32,762 bases of DNA from Thermoplasmata archaeon (GTDB taxonomy: Archaea > Thermoplasmatota > Thermoplasmata > Lutacidiplasmatales > UBA184), in contig JAKAOF010000002.1 in assembly GCA_021823345.1 (NCBI GenBank), positions 1 through 32,762 on the forward strand. The letters are read 5' to 3'. Both the position numbers and the translations under genes were made by a program. A model generated the notes under the pieces. It had not been told where the DNA came from, searched no databases, and saw only the letters and a program-made list of their open reading frames with translations. This document shows, piece after piece, positions 8,639-32,762 of the stretch. The stretch's first letter is position 1. Each line of letters starts with the position of its first letter.

Positions 8639-11600
8639 CTACTGTGGACCCGGAGGCAGGTAAGCGGGAGGGACCGGCGTCGGTGCCGCTCCCCGCTTCT
8701 TGCGTCTCCACATGAGCACACCGACCACGGCCGCCACGGCTACGACGGCGACCACGATCAGTATGAGCGGGAGGAGGAAACTGTTGTTGGAGGAATTAGG
8801 CGAACTCGAAGTGCCGCCATTTCCAGATCCTACCGAGAGCGTCGTAGTGGAGGTCGATGACCCGGACGTGTCATTGACGAACACCCGGATGCTGTAGCTA
8901 CCCGTCGCCGTCGGGAGACACGAGATCGATGCGAGGTCCTGTGTGGAACATCCGGGAGGCAATCCCACGTACGTGTACGAGAGCGTCTCCGTTCCGCCGG
9001 AAGCCGACACCTCGAGCTGAGTGACATTTCCCAGCGTCACCGAGGACGGCACCGCGATGAATGAATTGATCACCGGGCTCCCGGCGCCACCGCTGGCGGG
9101 GGTCACGTGGAGCACCGTGTTGGCCGACGCACCCTGGGAGGCACTGTCGTTCACATAGGCCGTGATGGTATAGTTGCCTGCCTGGGATGGAGTGCAGGTG
9201 AAGCTCGCCTTGTCGGTCGTCGAGCAACCGGTGGGCAGTCCCGAGTACGCGTAGGCAAGCGGTGCGGTGCCCCCCGTCACCGAAAGGGTTACCGTCGTCG
9301 CGACCCCAACCTGAACGGTTGTCGGGTTCACGGTGAAGGAGTTGATAACTGGGGCATTGGCGGACTGGGTCACGGAGAGATCCAAACTGGAGCTGTTGGT
9401 GAGCTTCTTCGCATCGGTCACGGTCACGGTGACGTGGAACGGACCCCCGCCAATCGTGGGCGTGCAGGAGAGGGTGGAGGTGTTCTGGCTGGAACATCCC
9501 GTCGGAAGTCCCGTATAGGCGAAGGTCAGTGGTGCAGAGCCCCCAGAAACTACCACCGCAAGTACGGTCTTTGAATTGACCGCAACAGGGTTCGGGGTCG
9601 CCGTGAAACCAGTGATCTTCGGTGCCGTCACGACCGGTTGGGTCAACGTGAACGTTGCGACACTGGTGATGTTCTTCCCGGAGGCATCGACCACGGTCAC
9701 ATTCACAAGGTAGGACTTCGGGGTCGCGGAAGTGCTCGTGTTGCAAACGAAATTGCTGGTGTTCGAGGTGGTGCAGCCCGTCGGAAGTCCGGTATAATCA
9801 TAGGTGTAGGGCGGCGTACCTGTACCCGGGCTCACGGTGGTGTTAAGGTACACCGTGCCTCCTGCCGGAACCGAGGCCGGCTGAGCGGTGAACCCGGTGA
9901 GTTGCAAGGGGGCGTTGATGGTGATACTGACGTTCTTCATCGCCTTCTCACCCACACTGTCGGTCACCAGGACTGAGATGGTGTACTTTCCCGTCGCTAG
10001 CGGGCGGCAGCTGAAACTGGATGGCTGGGTCCCGTTCGTGCACCCGCTTCCCGCAGGAAGTCCCGAATAGTTGTACACGATCGGAGCCAGCCCGCCGGTC
10101 ACTCCCACGGATAGGGTCATCGACGTGTTGGTGTCCAGGAGGTTGGGGGTTGCCGTGAACGAAGTGATGGCCAGTCGTCCAAACACGGCGAGGGTCGTCG
10201 TCGCATTGCTGGAGTGCTTTGCCGAGTCATTGAGGAACACCGTCACGTTGTAGGTTCCGGCCACGCTCGGGTTACATGAGAACGACGTAGCATTGTGGTT
10301 GGTACAGTTGGTCGGCAGACCCACGTACTTGTAGGTGATCGGACTGGGCCAAGAAGCATTCTTCACCGTGAATGTGGTGGACTGGTTGACCAAGATGCTC
10401 GCCGGAGAGGCGCTGAAGGACAAGATGGTCGGTCCGCCGGTCGGTGTGACACTGATGTTGGCTTCATCACTGAACGCGGAGCAGTTGTACGTGACATTCA
10501 CCCACAAGTGACCTGACACGGTTGTTGACCCCGCGGTCAGTGTAACAGACGGGCCCGTAGACGAGCTTAGAGTGCCGATCGAGGACGGAGTCATTTGCCA
10601 AGAGTACTTCGCTCCGGCCACGTTGGCACCATTTTCATCGATGGCCGTCGCATTGAACGTTTGTTTCCCAGCGTAAGCGAGTGCAGCCTGCACCGGGGTT
10701 AGCGTGCTCTGATTGATGAAGATCACCTTGAATCCGCCCCAGAGTGACTTAAACGCCCCGGGGAAAGCAACCGAAGTGCCCACCGTTAGCTGATCGACCG
10801 CGAGGGCTCCGTTCTGGGCCTTGCCCTGGATCCCCACCGTCTTCAGTGTCGAATTGAACTGCGGCATGGCGTTGGTCGCGGATGGGACAACCCAATTCCC
10901 AGCGGAGTTGCGCACCCCTACCGCGTAAGGGACGTTAGTAGTAGGCAAGTTCGGGGACGCCGCCCCCGACATTCCATAGGTGAAGGTCAGGAAGCTGGGG
11001 CCCACTCGAACCCCTTCTTCACAAAGATTTCCAACTGCGGCCGGTGTGCCCAGATTGTACGTGCCATTCTCCCAGGCGATTCCTCCCGAAGGGGTACCCC
11101 CGACAATCGGGTTACCGTCGTCCGTGAACGTCCACCAGTCCCCGGACTTGTGAGTGATCGCAAACTTATGAGTGCTACCCTGTGAAAATGTCGTCCATCC
11201 CGGACCACCGATACCGAAGATATTTTCGTTGACGATGAGGGTGCCATTTGGCAGGAAGGCGGCAGGGACGGCAACGTTAGAGACGCCATAGGTAGAGTTT
11301 GTCGTCATTGCGATTCCCGCTCCAGCGAGCGGAGGGTCGGTGGCTTTGATAGGTTGGGCAAAAATGGGGTCCACTACCCCCAGCACCAAGAACTGATTGT
11401 TCCCAAGATTGAGTCCGTTAGGGACCGTCATGGTGGAATTGACCCCGGAATTGTTCGTAAAGTCTGAAATATTCCACGTTCCGCCGGCTCCTGTACCGCC
11501 GCCCGGGAGTAGGGTAGTGGAAGGATGCGATGCGCTTTGGTGGCAATTGGCGGGCGAGTAGTGAGGGGCGAGAATATTGGTCGGCAAGTTCGCAAACGGA

Positions 11601-11734
11601 CCTCGCGACGACTGAACCGCAGGGCTCTGCGCGTTCATTACCACGAAGAACGAGGCGACGGTCATCATTAGGACGAGGGCGGCTACGACTGCTGGACGCA
11701 TAGGGCACGTGAACGCTCTGCTAATATTAAGCAT
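8639..11734 (-). CDS. Large secreted, membrane-anchored protein with six Ig-like Cys-pair modules
   Basis: A surface protein of about 1031 residues with no recognised enzyme domain. Signal peptide: MRPAVVAALVLMMTVASFFVV. A unique N-terminal domain (about 60-340) with many N-glycosylation sequons may be beta-sandwich and ligand binding, but I cannot name it. An Ig-like spacer follows (about 350-430). Then come six tandem modules of about 85-90 residues, each with a Y-x-GLPxGC...FxCxPxxxGxYxVxVxVxD pattern; the paired cysteines probably form one disulfide per module. The protein ends with a TM (LLPLILIVVAVVAVAAVVGVLMW), a basic stop-transfer, and a short proline-rich cytoplasmic tail (PTPVPPAYLPPGPQ). 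Start: ATG at 11734 has GGGAGGG 7 nt upstream. ATG at 11701 is an alternative, 25 nt from the TATA-like TAATATTAA (11722-11730). The ORF-track start at 11800 is less likely. Confidence 0.88.
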   Translation of the reverse strand: MLNISRAFTCPMRPAVVAALVLMMTVASFFVVMNAQSPAVQSSRGPFANLPTNILAPHYSPANCHQSASHPSTTLLPGGGTGAGGTWNISDFTNNSGVNSTMTVPNGLNLGNNQFLVLGVVDPIFAQPIKATDPPLAGAGIAMTTNSTYGVSNVAVPAAFLPNGTLIVNENIFGIGGPGWTTFSQGSTHKFAITHKSGDWWTFTDDGNPIVGGTPSGGIAWENGTYNLGTPAAVGNLCEEGVRVGPSFLTFTYGMSGAASPNLPTTNVPYAVGVRNSAGNWVVPSATNAMPQFNSTLKTVGIQGKAQNGALAVDQLTVGTSVAFPGAFKSLWGGFKVIFINQSTLTPVQAALAYAGKQTFNATAIDENGANVAGAKYSWQMTPSSIGTLSSSTGPSVTLTAGSTTVSGHLWVNVTYNCSAFSDEANISVTPTGGPTILSFSASPASILVNQSTTFTVKNASWPSPITYKYVGLPTNCTNHNATSFSCNPSVAGTYNVTVFLNDSAKHSSNATTTLAVFGRLAITSFTATPNLLDTNTSMTLSVGVTGGLAPIVYNYSGLPAGSGCTNGTQPSSFSCRPLATGKYTISVLVTDSVGEKAMKNVSITINAPLQLTGFTAQPASVPAGGTVYLNTTVSPGTGTPPYTYDYTGLPTGCTTSNTSNFVCNTSTSATPKSYLVNVTVVDASGKNITSVATFTLTQPVVTAPKITGFTATPNPVAVNSKTVLAVVVSGGSAPLTFAYTGLPTGCSSQNTSTLSCTPTIGGGPFHVTVTVTDAKKLTNSSSLDLSVTQSANAPVINSFTVNPTTVQVGVATTVTLSVTGGTAPLAYAYSGLPTGCSTTDKASFTCTPSQAGNYTITAYVNDSASQGASANTVLHVTPASGGAGSPVINSFIAVPSSVTLGNVTQLEVSASGGTETLSYTYVGLPPGCSTQDLASISCLPTATGSYSIRVFVNDTSGSSTSTTTLSVGSGNGGTSSSPNSSNNSFLLPLILIVVAVVAVAAVVGVLMWRRKKRGAAPTPVPPAYLPPGPQ
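11722..11730 (-). promoter_or_regulatory. TATA-like box inside the proposed 5' end of the Ig-repeat gene
   Basis: Minus-strand TTAATATTA is centred about 25 nt upstream of the in-frame ATG at 11701. If it is the promoter, the true start is 11701 (leaderless) and the protein loses 11 residues while keeping its signal peptide. It competes with the Shine-Dalgarno-supported start at 11734. Confidence 0.4.
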
Positions 11735-11900
11735 GACGTACCCTCCCCGAGGCGCCCGTGGGACAGGGGAGCGTTCACGCAGCGCCCCATGCGACGGCAT
11801 TCCGGGATTTCAGGGGCTTCCCCAAAGGATGCGGAAGAGTCTACGGGAAGGATGCCACCTTCGCAAGAACGACCTGGGGACGACCCCTCACTCCGCAGGC

Positions 11901-11952: not shown

Positions 11953-12255
11953 ATGGTAAAGGATGTAGCGCCGGTCGACCAATCCCACCCGTTCGGGGTG
12001 ATCATCCGGCGGGCATGCTCAACTCCGACCGAGTCTGAGATCCTGTCCCGAGTTCTCCGCGCCGACAACGAGGGTTATGCCACGGCCACTCATGATGGGG
12101 TCAATCTCGAGATCACGACCCACGCGCACAGCCTGCGAGAACTGCTCCGGGCCACGGACGATCTGCTTTCCTGCCTCGACACAGCCCAGCGGTCGCTGGT
12201 CAAAGCATCCCAGAGTCCAGCCGGAAACCGCAACGGCCGCAAACCCAAGCCCTAG
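11953..12255 (+). CDS. pcc1: KEOPS complex subunit Pcc1 (tRNA t6A modification)
   Basis: A 100-residue protein that fits the Pcc1 family, the dimerisation subunit of KEOPS. KEOPS transfers threonylcarbamoyl to A37 of ANN-decoding tRNAs. The core SEILSRVLRADNEGYATATHDG, then LEITTHAHSLRELLRATDDLLSCLDTAQ, follows the family pattern: an N-terminal strand-helix, D-N-x-x central strands, and a C-terminal helix with LR..DDLL..L. The C-terminal tail is basic (NRNGRKPKP). The ORF-track start at 11944 is TTG with GAGGAG only 3 nt away; ATG at 11953 is given, with some doubt. Its last 56 nt overlap the 3' end of the convergent zinc-ribbon gene. The family call rests on pattern recognition in a divergent small protein. 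Confidence 0.72.
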   Translation: MVKDVAPVDQSHPFGVIIRRACSTPTESEILSRVLRADNEGYATATHDGVNLEITTHAHSLRELLRATDDLLSCLDTAQRSLVKASQSPAGNRNGRKPKP

Positions 12256-13057
12256 GCTTGCCCCCGGTCCCATCCTGTACCCAGATGAGCGCTCCCCGGC
12301 AGCTCGGACACGTCACCGACGTCCGCACCCGGAATACTCCGTAGAGTCCCGGCAACCCGGGGGGAATGCTACCATCCAGCACCATCAATGGAGAAGCCAA
12401 GGGACCGTAGCCTCCGGCGGCCGGTCTCGCCGAAGGCCCGCCGCCGGCAACGGTGTGCGGCAAACAGAACAAGGTCAGTGAATAGTCGCCTGGGAGGAAA
12501 GTCGTCGTAATGGCATGCAGCACGTCAAACACGTGCCCAGGCGGGATCTCCATGGTCTCTCCCGTGAGCCGCAACCCCTGCATGTTCGGATTGGTCAAGG
12601 AAACATAGTAGGTGGCCGCGATCGGGATATTGCTCGCGTTGAGGACGAGCACCTGCATCTTGACCGGTTCCCCTGGAGGCAGGACGCTCAGAGGAATGAT
12701 GCGAGAGAAGCGCAAGCCCTTGCCGGCTTCCACCCACGACTGTCGGTCGTAGTAGGCCTGCCGCTCCGCATACGGGAAGAGCGTCCGCATGGGAGGCTCC
12801 GCGACCACGGGAAGGGGGGGATTGGACCGAGGGGGAAGAAGCGGGGGAGAGGGGGATGAAGCGGCGGGAGACGAGGGAGGCATCGCCGGAGCGGGATTCG
12901 GCGGAACAGCACTGACTTGAGACGGCGGAGCGGCGGGCCCCTTCCGTTCGTCGGCAAACGGTGCGTAACCGCATTTCGGGCAATACCAGCCCTTGGAGCG
13001 GTCCTTGACCATCAACCCGTCCTTGCACTTCGGGCAGGGCGGAGATATCGCAGCCAT
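12200..13057 (-). CDS. Protein with N- and C-terminal zinc ribbons and a proline-rich linker, function unknown
   Basis: A 285-residue soluble protein. An N-terminal zinc ribbon (CPKC...WYCPKCGY, residues about 8-30) is followed by a proline/serine-rich linker (about 40-100). A globular beta-rich region follows (about 105-245; PGEPVKMQVLVLNASNIP...YYVSLTNPN), reminiscent of an immunoglobulin-like fold. A second zinc ribbon closes the protein (CPSCRGAL...WVCGRCGFRL, about 255-283). No catalytic motif is visible. ATG at 13057 is chosen because ATTATA lies about 28 nt upstream and the first zinc ribbon begins right after it; the upstream part of the ORF-track entry (to 13324) has no protein character. 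It is divergent from endonuclease IV and overlaps pcc1 at the 3' ends. Confidence 0.78.
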   Translation of the reverse strand: MAAISPPCPKCKDGLMVKDRSKGWYCPKCGYAPFADERKGPAAPPSQVSAVPPNPAPAMPPSSPAASSPSPPLLPPRSNPPLPVVAEPPMRTLFPYAERQAYYDRQSWVEAGKGLRFSRIIPLSVLPPGEPVKMQVLVLNASNIPIAATYYVSLTNPNMQGLRLTGETMEIPPGHVFDVLHAITTTFLPGDYSLTLFCLPHTVAGGGPSARPAAGGYGPLASPLMVLDGSIPPGLPGLYGVFRVRTSVTCPSCRGALIWVQDGTGGKPRAWVCGRCGFRLDSGML

Positions 13058-13082
13058 CCCTCGAGCCAAGCAGACGGAGCCT

Positions 13083-13088
13083 ATAATG
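13083..13088 (-). promoter_or_regulatory. TATA box for the zinc-ribbon protein gene
   Basis: Minus-strand ATTATA is centred about 28 nt upstream of the ATG at 13057, consistent with a leaderless transcript. Confidence 0.5.
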
Positions 13089-13226
13089 GTGACTTTCCGG
13101 AAAATGTGCGAATCTCCGTCAGTGGAGCGACCGTACGATTGAGCGTACCTTGAAATCACCGTATGACATTTTGTCGCGGTCAGACTCCGATGCCCTTTTT
13201 TGTGGATCCCCTCTACAGACGCCACC

Positions 13227-14099
13227 ATGCTGCTCGGGGCACACATCGGGATATCGGGAGGACTGGAGAACGCACCCGACACCGCCCGAAGGATCGGCTG
13301 CGAGGTCATGCAGATCTTTTCCAAGAATCAACGACAATGGAAGGTCCCGGAATTGTCCCCATCGGTGGCCGAGGAATTCCGTCATCACGTGAAGAGCGCC
13401 GGTATCCAGGCCGTCGGGGTGCACGCCTCCTATCTCATCAATCTGGGTTCATCGGACCCCTTGCTCCAACGGAGATCGCGGGAGGCGTTGGTCGAGGAGC
13501 TGGTCCGGGCCGACGCCCTGGGAGCGGTCGGGGTGATCCTCCACCCCGGGGCCCATGTCGGTGCGGGCAAGGAACAGGGGATCGCCAATATCGTGCAGGG
13601 AGCGGTCGAGGCACTGGAGGCAACCAAGGCGCTCAAAGCGCATCTCATCCTAGAGATCGCCGCCGGGGCAGGAAGCACCTTGGGGCAAACCTTCGAGGAA
13701 CTCGAGGAGATCGGTCGACGCGTGGACCGGGACGACCGGCTCGGGTACTGCGTCGACACCTGCCATGTCTTTGCGGGGGGGGGCGATTTCCGGACCGCGG
13801 ATGGGTATGCCGGTATGATCGACCAGATCCGGAACACCATCGGGCTCAAACGGGTGGAGTTCTTCCATCTGAACGACGCCTTGTTCCCTCCGGGGACCCA
13901 CAAGGACCGGCACGCCAACATCGGAAAGGGGGAGATCGGCGCCGAGCCGTTCCGCCGTCTTTTGACAGATCCGAACTTCCGGAATATCCCCGGAGTGCTC
14001 GAAACTCCACTCGATGAGGATGAGAAGGAGCCTTACTCAGCGTACCTCCGTGACCTAGCGATTTTACGTGATTTGCTCCACTCGAAGGCTAAAGCTTAA
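13227..14099 (+). CDS. nfo: Endonuclease IV (AP endonuclease)
   Basis: A 290-residue TIM-barrel enzyme that incises DNA 5' to abasic sites in base excision repair and uses a cluster of metal ions. Family motifs occur in order: GAHIGISGG (residues 4-12), a His in LHPGAHVGAGK (about 110), LEIAAGAGS carrying the conserved Glu (about 145), YCVDTCHVFAGG with metal-binding Asp and His (about 175), FFHLNDALFPPGTHKDRHANIGKG (about 210-235), and LETPLDE with the last Glu (about 258). Length is normal for the family. ATG at 13227 is preferred over the TTG used by the ORF track (13200), because the first beta strand begins directly after it. AAGSTL replaces the more usual TAGQG, a mild variation. Confidence 0.96.
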   Translation: MLLGAHIGISGGLENAPDTARRIGCEVMQIFSKNQRQWKVPELSPSVAEEFRHHVKSAGIQAVGVHASYLINLGSSDPLLQRRSREALVEELVRADALGAVGVILHPGAHVGAGKEQGIANIVQGAVEALEATKALKAHLILEIAAGAGSTLGQTFEELEEIGRRVDRDDRLGYCVDTCHVFAGGGDFRTADGYAGMIDQIRNTIGLKRVEFFHLNDALFPPGTHKDRHANIGKGEIGAEPFRRLLTDPNFRNIPGVLETPLDEDEKEPYSAYLRDLAILRDLLHSKAKA

Positions 14100-21419: not shown

Positions 21420-24400
21420 ATGAATCGGACGACGCAGCTGAGTCCATTGATTGCGCTGACTGCTCTGCTTTTGGTAAGTGTCCTGCCCTCGGTCGCAGCG
21501 ACTAGCTCGTCGAGCTATTCGTTGACGGTCCAGGTCCAGATGACCTCACCTGGGATCGCGCCAAATTGGCTTAACTTTACACTGACCAATGCGGCCACAG
21601 GACAATCCTGTGAAAGCCCCACAAACGGAGGCGCCGTAGTGTTCAACTCTGCGAGTTGCCCCATATTGGGTGCCGGCTGGTGGCACGTGTTCATGCCTCC
21701 ACAGCAACTCACGATCACCCCGAACAGCGTCTGGTACGCCACACCATCTAACGCCACCGGGATCCTCGTGCCCCTCGGACAGCCCAACGGGGTCACCGTG
21801 GGGACCATCTACTCCGGCATCAGTGTGGTCCAATCCACATCGACTCTGACGGGAAATCTGCTCGGGGTCGTCCCGGGAGCCAGCTACCATGTCTCGCTCC
21901 TCAACCCGGCCTTCCCGAACTACCCCATCGCGAGCCAGACGGTCATCGCCCCGGGTTTCCTGGCGGCACAAGCTTCGAGCACCCCGAGCGCACCCGCTCA
22001 GGTCCACTATGGTTCGAACCCGCTCGCAACCACCTACAACATCACGGTCTCCACCGCCCCCACCGGCTGCACGATCACCTTCAACGGTGCTCCGTACTCC
22101 AACGGCCAGACGATCAAGAACGTCTCCGCCGGCACGTACCCTATCGTAGCGAACTCATGCACTGGGGCTACGTTCAGCACCTGGTCGAGCACCGCTGGAC
22201 CGGTCGCCACCCCAACGTTGTCCAACACCACGATCACGGTATCGAGTTCCGGTGTCCTCACGGCCACCTACACTACGACCACCGCCACCTACACGCTCAA
22301 GAACGTCCCCACGGGAACCTGGACCTTGCTCACCTCGGGTATCGGATCTACGAGCTTCAACTCCCCGCGGTACAACTATACCTCGGTGACCATCAGCTCC
22401 TCATCCGTGACCAAGAACGTCACGATCTCCGACTACCTCCTCTGGGGAAACATCCACACTCCCACCGGAGTGCTCAACAGCTCGGGGACCAACCTGACAG
22501 TTTGGGACACGACCTCCCACCAATTGTATAGTTCGTTCTGGCCCTCGACCGGTTCCACCTACTACCAGATGGGACTCTACTCCTCAGCCATTGGAACCCA
22601 AGGCGGGAACCAGAGCTTCGTGGCCTTCGTTGACCCACGAGGGTACAACACTTCCTACCATGCGCTGACGGTAGGCCCGTCCAAGCCGACCGCGGAGTTC
22701 AACCCATTCTCAAACTCGGGCGCGGCAGACACCTACACGACCACGCTTACGTTCGGAACCAACTTCTCGTTCGTGAAGGTTTCCAGTGACGCTCGCTTGA
22801 ACTCGAGCGGAGTCTTCACCCAGCTCCCGAACGCGACCGTGGGCAACCTCTGGGCGCAACTGGGCCTTGACTTCAACGCGAGCCAGCTGTCGTTCTCCAG
22901 CACCAACTACCCGCAGTTCGCTCGGTGGCTCCAGTACAACGGGCCCATCTTCCCGGTCGAATCCTACGGGTTGGCCGTGAACGGCACGCCCTTCCTGGAC
23001 AATGGCAAGTACACGAGCTCGTTCTCGGACCCCGCCTCGGCAGGACCGATCTCCTACACGAGCACTGCCGGGTACTCCTATTCGACGGCCTACTCGTACA
23101 ACCTGTCCAAGTCGCTGAAGGCGAACTACTCATCCTACACGCTCTCGATGGGATTCAGCTACCCCTCCGACAGCCAGGCGATGAACTACACGGTCAACTT
23201 GCCGAGCGGCTACGTTCTGAAGAACAACACCGCGGCGCCCGCCAACTCCAACCTCACGGCGGCCGGGCCCCAGGGAACCCTCGGACGGCTATGGACCAGC
23301 TTCACGCTGACGACCCACCCCTACGCACACACGATGGGATACGCCAACTTCACGATCTACAAGATCGAGAACGTCTCCGCGATCGTCAACGTCAGCAGCA
23401 CGAACTTCGCCTTCTCGGAGAAGAACGTCCTCAACAAGACGCTCAACAACTACACCGTCGTCGTGGGTGCCAACAAGAACATCACCCTTACCGCCTCGCA
23501 CTCCCGCGTACCCCCCACGATGAACATCACCGCCTACCTCTGGAACCTCTCCGGACCGGGAGGCGCGTTCAACATCAACTCCCGGAATGCGACCGTCAAC
23601 CACACCTTCACTCAGGGTGGCAAATACCTGGGCACACTCACCATCGTCGCGAGCGGCGGCAACAAGAACACGACCAACTTCACGATCTACGTGTCCAGCC
23701 TGAACCCGAACGCACAGATCAGCGTCAATAACACCCACATCCAGAGCGCGAACGGCGTGCGCTACCTCTACGTCAACTGGAGCCAGATGCTCCAGTTCAA
23801 CGCTTCGGGAAGCAATGACTCCATCGCGCCCACCGTGCCCCCCAGCCAGCTCCCGGGCAACATCTCCGTTGCCTCGTGGAACATATCGGCCTATGGGGCG
23901 TACAAGGTCGTGAATTACACGGTCGGACAGAACGCGAACGTGTTCAGTAACTTCTCGTTCCAGTTCCAAGGAGCGGGACACTACTACTCGAGCGCGGTCA
24001 CACTGGGAGGAACCTCCCTCCACCTTGTCGGTTGGCTCTACACGATATCCCTCAATGTCTGGGACGCAGGAGGCAACCGTGCCAACACCACGCTCTACGT
24101 GCTGGTCAACGACACGGAGAAGCCCATCGCGCTCGGCAGCGTTCAGAACTCGGCCGGGAAGAACATCACCGGTGGCCTTGTCGAGAACAAGAACGGCACC
24201 GTCGAGGTCAAGCTGCTCGACAAGTACAGCAGCGACCCCCACAACGGATCCGTCGCGAGCTACAACTGGAGCGTCGTGAATGCGGCCGGCACGAACATCT
24301 CGGGCCAGCACATCAACGCCACCAAGAAGTTCTACCTGAACTCGAGCACTGCCCAGGTTTGGATCCTCTACCTGCCCGCCTCGACCGGGACGTACAACTT

Positions 24401-25109
24401 CTCGTTGAACGTCACGGACCTAGCCGGGAACAAGGCCAACTCGACCTACCCGGTCACGGTGGCGCAAAACCTCACCTACCGGCCGGTCATCTCGGTCGGT
24501 AACCTTACGGCCGCCAGCACGATGACCGACGGCACGTCCTACACGATCTGGGTCAACGTCAACAACACGGGATACAAGACCTCGGTCGCCGACAACGTGA
24601 CGATGGAGTTCTACATCACGAACCCGGACGGCACGGGCAAGACCGTGATCGGAGGCTCCCCCAGTGCAGTCAAGTGGTACGGTTACACCAAGGGCGTGGT
24701 CAACTCCTCGGCTTCGTTCACGGGCACTTTGCCCACGATGGATGCGAACGTCAGCTGGCGCGCTCAGATCAGCTACACGCCATCGGACGGCTTCACGGGC
24801 ACCAAGGAACTGTGGGCGAACGCCAGCGCTTCGAACGAGTTCATCGGAGAGTACAGCAACAAGGCCAACGTGGCGCACACCCCGGTGACCATCAACCCGA
24901 ACCCGCTCACCTTCTACCTGGAGATAGTTGCGATCGTGGTGGTCGTCGTCGTCATCCTAGCGATCGTCATCATCGTCTACCGGCGGCGCAAGTCCGGCGG
25001 CACCTCGACCAAGAAGGACAGCGGCAAGGACAAGGGCAAGGCCTCGAAGACTGAGACGATCAAGGACAAGCCCAAGGCGTCCACGGAAGAGGAAGAAGAA
25101 GAGGAATAG
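21420..25109 (+). CDS. Giant secreted, membrane-anchored, sequon-rich surface protein (S-layer candidate)
   Basis: A 1229-residue surface protein. The signal peptide MNRTTQLSPLIALTALLLVSVLPSVAA is followed by an all-beta ectodomain with roughly sixty N-x-S/T glycosylation sequons (counted by eye). A Cys-pair module (GCTITFNGAPYSNGQTI ... SCTGATFSTWSS, about 212-260) is shared with the Kelch protein. PKD-like beta segments recur (for example ITAYLWNLSGPGG, VASWNISAYG, VASYNWSVVN). A C-terminal TM (VVVVVVILAIVIIVYRRRK, about 1175-1195) is followed by a Lys-rich tail ending in a run of Glu. Codons are strongly biased to C-ending forms, more than in neighbours, as in highly expressed genes. Location beside ribosomal-protein genes and the strong terminator agree with high expression. 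S-layer identity is inference; a glycosylated adhesin is the alternative. Confidence 0.85.
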   Translation: MNRTTQLSPLIALTALLLVSVLPSVAATSSSSYSLTVQVQMTSPGIAPNWLNFTLTNAATGQSCESPTNGGAVVFNSASCPILGAGWWHVFMPPQQLTITPNSVWYATPSNATGILVPLGQPNGVTVGTIYSGISVVQSTSTLTGNLLGVVPGASYHVSLLNPAFPNYPIASQTVIAPGFLAAQASSTPSAPAQVHYGSNPLATTYNITVSTAPTGCTITFNGAPYSNGQTIKNVSAGTYPIVANSCTGATFSTWSSTAGPVATPTLSNTTITVSSSGVLTATYTTTTATYTLKNVPTGTWTLLTSGIGSTSFNSPRYNYTSVTISSSSVTKNVTISDYLLWGNIHTPTGVLNSSGTNLTVWDTTSHQLYSSFWPSTGSTYYQMGLYSSAIGTQGGNQSFVAFVDPRGYNTSYHALTVGPSKPTAEFNPFSNSGAADTYTTTLTFGTNFSFVKVSSDARLNSSGVFTQLPNATVGNLWAQLGLDFNASQLSFSSTNYPQFARWLQYNGPIFPVESYGLAVNGTPFLDNGKYTSSFSDPASAGPISYTSTAGYSYSTAYSYNLSKSLKANYSSYTLSMGFSYPSDSQAMNYTVNLPSGYVLKNNTAAPANSNLTAAGPQGTLGRLWTSFTLTTHPYAHTMGYANFTIYKIENVSAIVNVSSTNFAFSEKNVLNKTLNNYTVVVGANKNITLTASHSRVPPTMNITAYLWNLSGPGGAFNINSRNATVNHTFTQGGKYLGTLTIVASGGNKNTTNFTIYVSSLNPNAQISVNNTHIQSANGVRYLYVNWSQMLQFNASGSNDSIAPTVPPSQLPGNISVASWNISAYGAYKVVNYTVGQNANVFSNFSFQFQGAGHYYSSAVTLGGTSLHLVGWLYTISLNVWDAGGNRANTTLYVLVNDTEKPIALGSVQNSAGKNITGGLVENKNGTVEVKLLDKYSSDPHNGSVASYNWSVVNAAGTNISGQHINATKKFYLNSSTAQVWILYLPASTGTYNFSLNVTDLAGNKANSTYPVTVAQNLTYRPVISVGNLTAASTMTDGTSYTIWVNVNNTGYKTSVADNVTMEFYITNPDGTGKTVIGGSPSAVKWYGYTKGVVNSSASFTGTLPTMDANVSWRAQISYTPSDGFTGTKELWANASASNEFIGEYSNKANVAHTPVTINPNPLTFYLEIVAIVVVVVVILAIVIIVYRRRKSGGTSTKKDSGKDKGKASKTETIKDKPKASTEEEEEEE

Positions 25110-30389: not shown

Positions 30390-32762
30390 TTACCTCGGTG
30401 GGGGGGGAGGAATCGGGCCGCCCGGCGGTGATCCCGGTGGAGGGTACTGGGGAGGAGACCCTGAGGGAGGGGGGCTCTGCCAGTTCGGGTACTGGGTGGG
30501 GGGAGGCGGCTGGACCCAGGGCTGTGCGGATGGAGGAGGGGCGGACTCGCGTCCGCGGTTACGACCATGCCGTACCGCGACCGCGGCCACCACCACGACC
30601 ACTCCGACGATCACGGCGATGAGCAACCAGTCGATCAGTCCGAGCCCCAAGATGGTCTGATTCCCGTTGTTGGAGTTCCCGCTGTTGATGGATTCTACGT
30701 TCAGCGACACCTTGGTCGAGTTGGCCGTATACGATGAGGAGTCGGTGACCGTCACCGCGATCGAGAACTGGCCGGTCTGAGTCGGGCTGCACGTGAACTG
30801 GGCCAAGTCCTGGGAGGAGCACCCCAGGGGAAGACCCGAGTAGGCGAACGTATAGGGCTGTACCCCGCCACTGACCGTCGTGGTGAAGGTGACCGGGCTG
30901 TTCACGCTCACCGTGTTCACGGAAATGGCCAACGTGGGAGTGGTCATCGAGCTCTTGAAGGGGTTCACGATGAGGCCGGTCGACGCCGCGTAGCTCGCCG
31001 AGTTGGCATCCGTCACGGTGACGTACACGGAGAAGCTCCCCGAGATGGTCGGCTTGCACGAGAACGTGGGCGTCGAGGACGAGCACCCGGGGGGCAGGCC
31101 AGAGAAGGAGAACGAGTAGGGAGCTTTTCCACCGCTCACCGCCGTGGTGAACGTAGTCGAGCTGCCCAGGGTGATCACACTGGGATTGGCGACGAACGAG
31201 GAGATCGTCGGCCCTCCCGAGGCTTGAGCCTGGACCATCAAGGTGGCGTTGCCCCAAACCTGTGCGCCTTTGGCATCCTTTACGTTGAGCGAGACCGTAT
31301 ACGTGCCCGCCGAGAGAGGAGCGCAGGCAAAGGTGCTGACATTCCCGGAGGAACAGCCGGGTGGGATACCCAGGTAGGAGTACGTGTAGGCGGGGTACCC
31401 CCCCGAAACCGAGGCCGTGAACGTGGCGGTGGCCCCGGTAGCCACCGTAGAGGGGGTCACGGTGAATGCGGAAAGGGCCAGCGGGCTTGAGCCCACCGGA
31501 TTGACCACAAGGCTGAGCGATCCCGATGCGGTGTTCGAGCTCGCATCCGTCACACCGAGGCTTACGGTGAACGTTCCCGAGACCGTGGGTACGCAGGTAA
31601 AGGCGTAGGTGTTGCCCCCCGAGCAACCGGTGGGAAGACCGCTGTAGGAGTACGAGTAGGGAGCCGTGCCGCCCGTCACATTGTCCGTGATCTGGGTAGC
31701 GGCACCCTGGGTAACCGGGTTGGGAGAGGCCGTGAACGAGTTGACGGTCAACTTCCCGACCACCTTCGGGTTCACCACGACGCTGAGGGTCCTGGTCGAA
31801 GAGGTGTGAGAAGCATCCGTCACGGTCACCGTGGTATTCCAAGTGCCCGAGGCCGTCGGAGTACAGGTGAGGGTCGACGAGTTCACCGAGGCGCAACCGG
31901 GCGGGAGCACTGCGTAGGCGTACGTATAAGGACTGACGCCTCCGCTGGCGGTCACCGAGAAGACCATCGACGTTCCGACGGTCCCGGGACTGGGCAGGAC
32001 GGTGAAGGCCGTCACGGTCACATTTCCGCCCGATGACGGAGCAGACGTGACCACAACCGTTACCGTGTTCGAGGCGGCGGTATTGGCGGCCTGCGTGACC
32101 GTCACCTTGGCCGAGTACACCCCGGCTTTCGTGTACGTGTGGGTGGCATAGTACGTGGTCGTCGTGGAGGAGGTGCCGTCACCGAAAGACCAGTTGTACG
32201 AATACCCGGTGAGCGGAGCGGAGCCTCCTGCGGCATCGGCGCCGAACGAGACGGCAAGGTTCGCCTGCCCGTAGGTCACGTTGGAGCTCATCACCACGGT
32301 CAATGGAGCGTAGGGCGAGGGATTGCCGTTTTCCTTGGCAAGCAACTGGGCCATCTGGCTCACATTGAAGCTCCCCAGCCCGGTCACTGGACTCCAGCCG
32401 GGCTGTTCGGTGTACCCACTACCGGAAACCATGTTGTTCCCGATCAGGATATCGAAGAAGCCGGTGTGATAGCTCGTGCCCTTCCCAATGGCATACATTG
32501 CATAGTTCGCCATCCCATTCCCCTTGGTCGCGGTGCCGTTGAACTGGTACATGACGTCCAGCATGCCTGCCGACGAGGGACTGGCGAGCGAAGTGCCCGC
32601 ACTGAGCGTCCAAGCCCCATTGTAGACGAGCTCCACCCATGTGCCACCGACCGCGGCGATGTCCGGGACGCCCCGGCACGTCGTGGACGTGCACCCGGAT
32701 GGGTCCTGTGTCCCGAATCCCTGCATACCCTGTTGGTACGTCGGGGCCGGGTAGGCCGTGGT
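30390..32762 (-). CDS. Membrane-anchored S53 (sedolisin-type) serine protease with PKD and Ig-like modules, N-terminal part beyond right edge
   Basis: The reading frame is open to the window end; 790 residues are visible. The first 130 are the C-terminal part of an S53 peptidase: YPAPTYQQG, CRGVPDIAAVGG, the catalytic-serine segment AGTSLASPSSAG, and FFDILIGNN ... GWSPVTGLGSFN. The catalytic Glu and Asp lie outside the window. A PKD domain follows (YSYNWSFGDGTS ... HTYTKAGVYSAKVTV, about 165-240). Five Ig-like modules with the GLPxGC ... FxCxPTxxG pattern come next, then a TM (WLLIAVIVGVVVVVAAVAV). The roughly 60-residue proline-rich cytoplasmic tail includes QPWVQPPPPTQYP and ends in PIPPPPPR. 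S53 enzymes are acid peptidases; secretion here suggests extracellular protein degradation. Its modules match those of the protein at 8639-11734. Confidence 0.9.
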   Translation of the reverse strand, partial: TTAYPAPTYQQGMQGFGTQDPSGCTSTTCRGVPDIAAVGGTWVELVYNGAWTLSAGTSLASPSSAGMLDVMYQFNGTATKGNGMANYAMYAIGKGTSYHTGFFDILIGNNMVSGSGYTEQPGWSPVTGLGSFNVSQMAQLLAKENGNPSPYAPLTVVMSSNVTYGQANLAVSFGADAAGGSAPLTGYSYNWSFGDGTSSTTTTYYATHTYTKAGVYSAKVTVTQAANTAASNTVTVVVTSAPSSGGNVTVTAFTVLPSPGTVGTSMVFSVTASGGVSPYTYAYAVLPPGCASVNSSTLTCTPTASGTWNTTVTVTDASHTSSTRTLSVVVNPKVVGKLTVNSFTASPNPVTQGAATQITDNVTGGTAPYSYSYSGLPTGCSGGNTYAFTCVPTVSGTFTVSLGVTDASSNTASGSLSLVVNPVGSSPLALSAFTVTPSTVATGATATFTASVSGGYPAYTYSYLGIPPGCSSGNVSTFACAPLSAGTYTVSLNVKDAKGAQVWGNATLMVQAQASGGPTISSFVANPSVITLGSSTTFTTAVSGGKAPYSFSFSGLPPGCSSSTPTFSCKPTISGSFSVYVTVTDANSASYAASTGLIVNPFKSSMTTPTLAISVNTVSVNSPVTFTTTVSGGVQPYTFAYSGLPLGCSSQDLAQFTCSPTQTGQFSIAVTVTDSSSYTANSTKVSLNVESINSGNSNNGNQTILGLGLIDWLLIAVIVGVVVVVAAVAVRHGRNRGRESAPPPSAQPWVQPPPPTQYPNWQSPPPSGSPPQYPPPGSPPGGPIPPPPPR

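Follow-up and report, generated by a model that had tools for sequence, protein, structure and literature searches.

The described domains closest to the repeats reported here belong to a superfamily of beta-sandwiches that includes PKD and cadherin-like (CDHL) domains. In SraP, CDHL modules (He_PIG, PF05345; PDB 4m00-4m03) lie between the head and the surface anchor and form a relatively rigid stem that is stiffened by bound calcium (PMC4047093). PKD domains (PF00801) have been solved from a clostridial collagenase (2y72) and an archaeal S-layer protein (1l0q). Classical immunoglobulin (Ig) domains are likewise beta-sandwiches that occur in cell-surface arrays, each with one disulfide that joins strands B and F. 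S53, thermopsin and other acid peptidases have been listed as extracellular in the archaea considered here, in a text that does not mention PKD, immunoglobulin, S-layer or disulfide (PMC9287336). In the open-access papers searched, we found no prior description of the module.

Two predicted surface proteins share a module with a cysteine pair

The window, by which we mean the whole 32,762-nucleotide stretch of DNA that was analysed, contains two genes encoding proteins that we call A and B (Table 1). As an earlier note on this DNA had described, protein A carries six copies of a module and protein B, an S53-type peptidase, carries five, with GLPxGC...FxCxP in each. The modules of protein A are 83-89 aa long with a period of 86-95 and those of protein B have a period of 88-90. 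All 11 modules have both cysteines, which are close to invariant, as claimed before; the Cys2 column does not vary, and in module A2 Cys1 lies two residues away from its usual column. The proposed surface location agrees with the predicted N-terminal signal or transmembrane (TM) segment, C-terminal TM helix and basic or proline-rich tail.

Table 1. Coordinates of proteins A and B and of their parts within the window.
Feature	Positions	Strand	Basis or remark
Protein A, 1053 aa	8639..11800	-	signal/TM, orphan head, Ig-like domain, six Cys-pair modules, TM, basic/Pro-rich tail
Hydrophobic signal/anchor, N-terminal, protein A (aa 22-60)	11621..11737	-	hydropathy
Protein A head (aa 61-375)	10676..11620	-	orphan; orthologues known
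Ig-like domain closing protein A head (aa 375-457), one Cys	10430..10678	-	weak Big_1 match
Cys-pair module A1 (C499, C509)	10178..10429	-	module alignment; structure modelled
Cys-pair module A2 (C587, C598; GLPAGSGC)	9911..10171	-	module alignment
Cys-pair module A3 (C676, C686)	9638..9904	-	module alignment
Cys-pair module A4 (C769, C779)	9365..9619	-	module alignment
Cys-pair module A5 (C859, C869)	9098..9349	-	module alignment
Cys-pair module A6 (C951, C961)	8825..9073	-	module alignment
C-terminal TM helix and RRKKR/Pro-rich tail, protein A	8642..8803	-	hydropathy
Protein B, C-terminal 790 aa, S53-type (pro-kumamolisin) peptidase	30390..32762	-	cut by window end
Classical PKD domain (FGDG), protein B, without Cys	32055..32306	-	Pfam
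Cys-pair module B1	31767..32018	-	module alignment
Cys-pair module B2	31497..31748	-	module alignment
Cys-pair module B3	31227..31478	-	module alignment
Cys-pair module B4	30960..31208	-	module alignment
Cys-pair module B5	30693..30944	-	module alignment
C-terminal TM helix and Pro-rich tail, protein B	30393..30653	-	hydropathy

We place the start of protein A at the ATG at 11800, with 11734, the start taken in the earlier note, as a plausible alternative. The head of this protein has orthologues in L061 and L077 (46-48% identical) and in genomes of the same genus, and had no match among Pfam families or PDB sequences. Structure prediction (AF2) on three head orthologues gave models of low confidence (pLDDT 32). 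Together the head and the Ig-like domain contain three conserved cysteines, an odd number, and not all cysteines there are obviously paired. The Ig-like domain, which ends in VNVTYNCS, represents a second expanded family that is found at many sites, often in tandem, in genomes of the same archaeal family. Elsewhere in the window, 12200-13324 on the minus strand encodes a TnpB/Cas12f1-like TNB domain protein by a weak match that is barely above the cut-off. A large surface protein with PKD-like domains, a C-terminal TM, an acidic tail and four cysteines is predicted at 21420-25109 on the plus strand, and the GLPxGC module is absent from it.

The whole frame of protein B is 1172 codons long in L031 and is broken by a run of N that adjoins the window end. 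This run lies inside the S53 gene at 32762, and the assembly therefore covers only part of the catalytic region. We assigned the S53 label from a pro-kumamolisin activation domain (full frame, E 1e-14) and a GTSxxxP motif recognized by eye. A PKD-like domain with another cysteine pair (YCNSIACW; L031, translated aa about 270-345) separates the pro-domain of the peptidase from its catalytic part and is also found in L070 and L079.

A cysteine-bearing variant of the PKD/CDHL superfamily

Searching Pfam with the 11 window modules gave matches to PKD for all of them at E<=1 and weak matches to He_PIG for eight. When taken singly, four modules exceeded the PKD cut-off, applied as an E-value set to correspond to 23.5 bits, and none passed the stricter He_PIG threshold. 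The whole proteins do pass the PKD cut-off. No dedicated family was found in Pfam or NCBIfam, and no NCBIfam domain model covers the module above its cut-off. The fold of module A1 was modelled with AlphaFold (AF2) at high confidence (pLDDT 95) and is PKD/CDHL-like. With Foldseek, the nearest solved structures were SraP CDHL (4m02; TMq 0.68-0.75 for 4m00-4m03), the collagenase PKD 2y72 (0.73) and the S-layer PKD 1l0q (0.67). These neighbours rule out a separate new fold. Because of the PF00801 and He_PIG matches and the placement among PKD and CDHL domains, we conclude that the module is a cysteine-bearing variant of the PKD/He_PIG/CDHL beta-sandwich superfamily. Thus, the earlier claim that the family is distinct from PKD is not supported, and Pfam places all modules with PKD as far as a match goes and only four of them above the cut-off.

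The likeness to CDHL domains lies in the fold and in the motif GLPxG[L/C]...[I/F]x[G/C]TPTxxGxxxVxVxxxD. The sequence profile is collinear with SraP, where GLPSGL...IIGTPT lies on GLPxGC...FxCTPT and the motif Leu and Gly are both Cys in the module; it is also collinear with the He_PIG-type repeats of L131. The position between a head and a surface anchor and the proposed job as a stem are alike as well, whereas the arrays described here have far more copies and heads and an archaeal TM anchor instead of a cell-wall anchor. The likeness to PKD domains lies in the fold and in the C-terminal half, GxYxVxVxVxD. By contrast, WxFGDG is missing from all 11 window modules, which have YxGLPxGC or a close variant instead, and Cys2 occupies the aligned site of the conserved PKD histidine.

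We considered whether the modules are ordinary PKD domains that Pfam already covers, with a cysteine pair that has drifted in and has no special role. The Pfam matches of every module and of the whole proteins favor this explanation, as do the classical FGDG PKD domains, without cysteines, that alternate freely with the cysteine modules in the same proteins. However, seven of the 11 modules fall below the PKD cut-off on their own and the FGDG motif is missing, so that we regard this explanation as unlikely.

The two cysteines are gained and lost together

A profile search of the host genome and its relatives yielded 570 modules. Both cysteines were present in 398 modules, neither in 154 and one in 18 (Fisher p about 6e-117, relatedness uncorrected); the profile was seeded with cysteine modules, which may inflate the class with both and hardly accounts for the small number with one. 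Among the 18 are several modules that are cut short where the alignment or contig ends or that bear another pair. Counting all cysteines, 416 modules had two, 133 had none and 16 had one, which gives 549 of 570 with two or none. The spacing between Cys1 and Cys2 was exactly 9 residues in 365 of the 398 modules. A pattern this regular lies far outside chance. Other pairs, also even in number, occur in the same frame at different sites (columns 68-126, 104-173, 104-176 and a few more). Since the cysteines are gained and lost together, their counts are even and their spacing is constant, we infer that each pair forms one disulfide within its module, and the single disulfide per module suggested earlier is borne out as far as sequence can speak to it. 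This coupling and even spacing across 398 modules also argue against ordinary PKD domains with a drifted pair. In two loci, L043:4720-8700 and L054:5936-12007, we observed arrays that are paired differently, with a loop cysteine and a strand F cysteine (TTYYCVVVTD).

Another explanation is that the cysteines bridge chains or neighboring modules to form a cross-linked surface coat that substitutes for an S-layer. Many predicted surface proteins carry the module in abundance, and the odd cysteines in head regions could join chains. However, loss and gain of the cysteines by module, together with their constant spacing, point to bonding inside the module, and modules with FGDG and no cysteines are freely interspersed with the cysteine modules. 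We therefore consider a cross-linked coat very unlikely. Alternatively, the pair could bind a metal (Cu, Zn or Fe) or be a redox or heme-attachment site, with which cells in acid waters rich in metals would capture metal or carry out extracellular electron transfer. Among the nearest relatives are metagenome-assembled genomes (MAGs) with isolate names that suggest mine sites, the habitat being read from the names alone, and very many of these cysteine sites would lie on the cell surface. By contrast, there are two cysteines about 10 residues apart, a conserved His, Met or third ligand was not found in the alignment, CxxCH is absent, the number of cysteines is even at several alternative positions, and thiols bind metals poorly at low pH. 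This is the least probable of the explanations that we weighed, and a disulfide within each module remains our preferred reading.

Stalks in the host genome are numerous and old

The host genome is 1.86 Mb and 94% complete. A module search of this genome gave 90 matches, and we counted 132 cysteine modules in 33 reading frames with 1 to 13 in each. The usual layout is a head, a stalk, a C-terminal TM helix and a tail, and the arrays stop just before the C-terminal TM in nearly all 33 frames as judged by hydropathy. According to Pfam, the heads include pro-kumamolisin/S53, thermopsin, GH25, GH57, GDSL lipase and phosphoesterase domains as well as Kelch, NHL/YNCE and PQQ propellers. Given the 33 reading frames and the diversity of heads, the module is a general stalk rather than a peculiarity of two proteins. 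The earlier note was correct that two surface proteins of the window have it in common and set the scale too low. Three of the module-bearing proteins (L052:1754-10387, L052:1-1626 and L033:6761-10519) have a CxxC...CxxC tail resembling a zinc ribbon after the TM.

The regular length of the modules had been taken as a sign of recent duplication. We found that, for a window module, the best match inside its own protein is only about 40-55% identical. Of 130 modules of the host genome, 80 had their best match in a different genome, 46 in a different protein of the same genome and four within their own protein. The S53 stalk is collinear with that of its L070 orthologue at 6/6 positions (the PKD domain and five modules). 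The order in the protein A stalk is collinear at 6/6 between L061 and L077, and at 5/6 and 4/6 when these are compared with the window. The low identity within proteins and the conserved module order rule out recent tandem duplication. Because module order is collinear across species and so few best matches are in the same protein, the stalk arrays are old.

In the genomes sampled, the cysteine pair is confined to one archaeal family

Among 293 genomes of the phylum, strong matches were confined to the family of the host (E 1e-18 to 1e-32 in 12 of 13 genomes). All 13 sampled family genomes have the cysteine form, including the thirteenth, which had a weak match (5e-9) and yet has the pair. Outside the family, none of 77 modules, taken from the best loci with one locus per genome, had the type-I cysteine pair, a further point against ordinary PKD domains. 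A scan of 84,980 species with three modules as the query found 51 loci with patterns near the query, and more distant forms in other phyla could escape it. The titles of these loci were Thermoplasmata, Lutacidiplasma or Euryarchaeota, except in one MAG (DX1.bin10) that bears the title 'bacterium' and has module scores like those of the host genus. The relatives that we found are archaeal genome contigs, and Candidatus Lutacidiplasma silvani is among the matches. The aconitase of this species is 60% identical to that of the window, compared with 58-62% for most other family members and 50-52% for outgroups from the order and class. Because this identity falls in the range of the family and exceeds the outgroups, the host family is probably the Lutacidiplasmatales family.

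A proposed disulfide-stapled stalk may replace calcium in acid

We think it likely that the module is a lineage-specific, disulfide-stapled variant of the PKD/CDHL fold that forms a membrane-proximal display stalk in acid. Cys in place of Leu in GLPxGL and Cys in place of Gly in IxGTP would give one intradomain disulfide. With its cysteines about 10 residues apart, this disulfide would pin the loop that follows strand C to the end of the strand after it, unlike the B-F disulfide of classical Ig domains. In type-I-like membrane proteins, tandem arrays would then make up the stalk next to the membrane and would hold the heads (acid proteases, glycosidases, lipase, phosphoesterase and propellers) off the cell surface in acid. 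We infer an acid habitat for the host genome. The stalk would be rigid and may serve in resistance to acid and proteases, with the disulfide taking over from the calcium of CDHL stems as the stiffener.

To compare calcium ligands, we placed D601/N602 of SraP at the SG of VSGG, with a chain offset of 541 obtained from the chain length and the last residue. The equivalent D-N pair was present in 0 of the 398 cysteine modules and the terminal Asp, equivalent to D734, was retained in 378; this count covers cysteine modules, and the absence of the ligands does not in itself prove replacement. Charged residues are few: a module has 2.6 acidic and 1.8 basic ones on average. Carboxylates bind calcium poorly at low pH, and a disulfide staple would therefore be a sensible substitute. 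Thiol-disulfide exchange is slower at low pH, which counts against a stapled stalk.

The genome also encodes candidate partners for making disulfides. A 376-aa membrane protein with CPYC has a VKOR gene (CPVC; E 3e-23) directly downstream (L111:334-2001), and the two are probably an operon. From their sequences, the CPYC protein and VKOR are likely to be an extracytoplasmic disulfide-forming pair; by the logic of VKOR and thioredoxin-like proteins, such a pair is expected where disulfides are made outside the membrane (PMC4555120). Of the 13 family genomes, 11 gave a VKOR match; outside the family, only one genome of the same class among those listed did. VKOR also occurs in many distant Thermoplasmatota where cysteine modules were not seen. 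Because two of the 13 family genomes had no VKOR match, either VKOR is not needed in a strict sense or it was missed in incomplete genomes.

A broader proposal, possible and somewhat doubtful, is that the whole family has standardized its surface proteome on a single stalk module, poor in charge and stapled by a disulfide, which takes the place of calcium-dependent stiffening in acid. The module would descend from a PKD/CDHL ancestor and would have emerged alongside the gain of VKOR and the CPYC protein, and the further cysteine pairs would have arisen independently. The coupled cysteines are a natural experiment in placing disulfides at several sites of one fold and would be of use in protein stabilization, and the pair may be a diagnostic marker of the archaeal family. 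For the organism, these results provide a testable account in which the extracellular enzymes of an acid-dwelling archaeon would be attached to the cell by a shared stapled stalk and not simply released.
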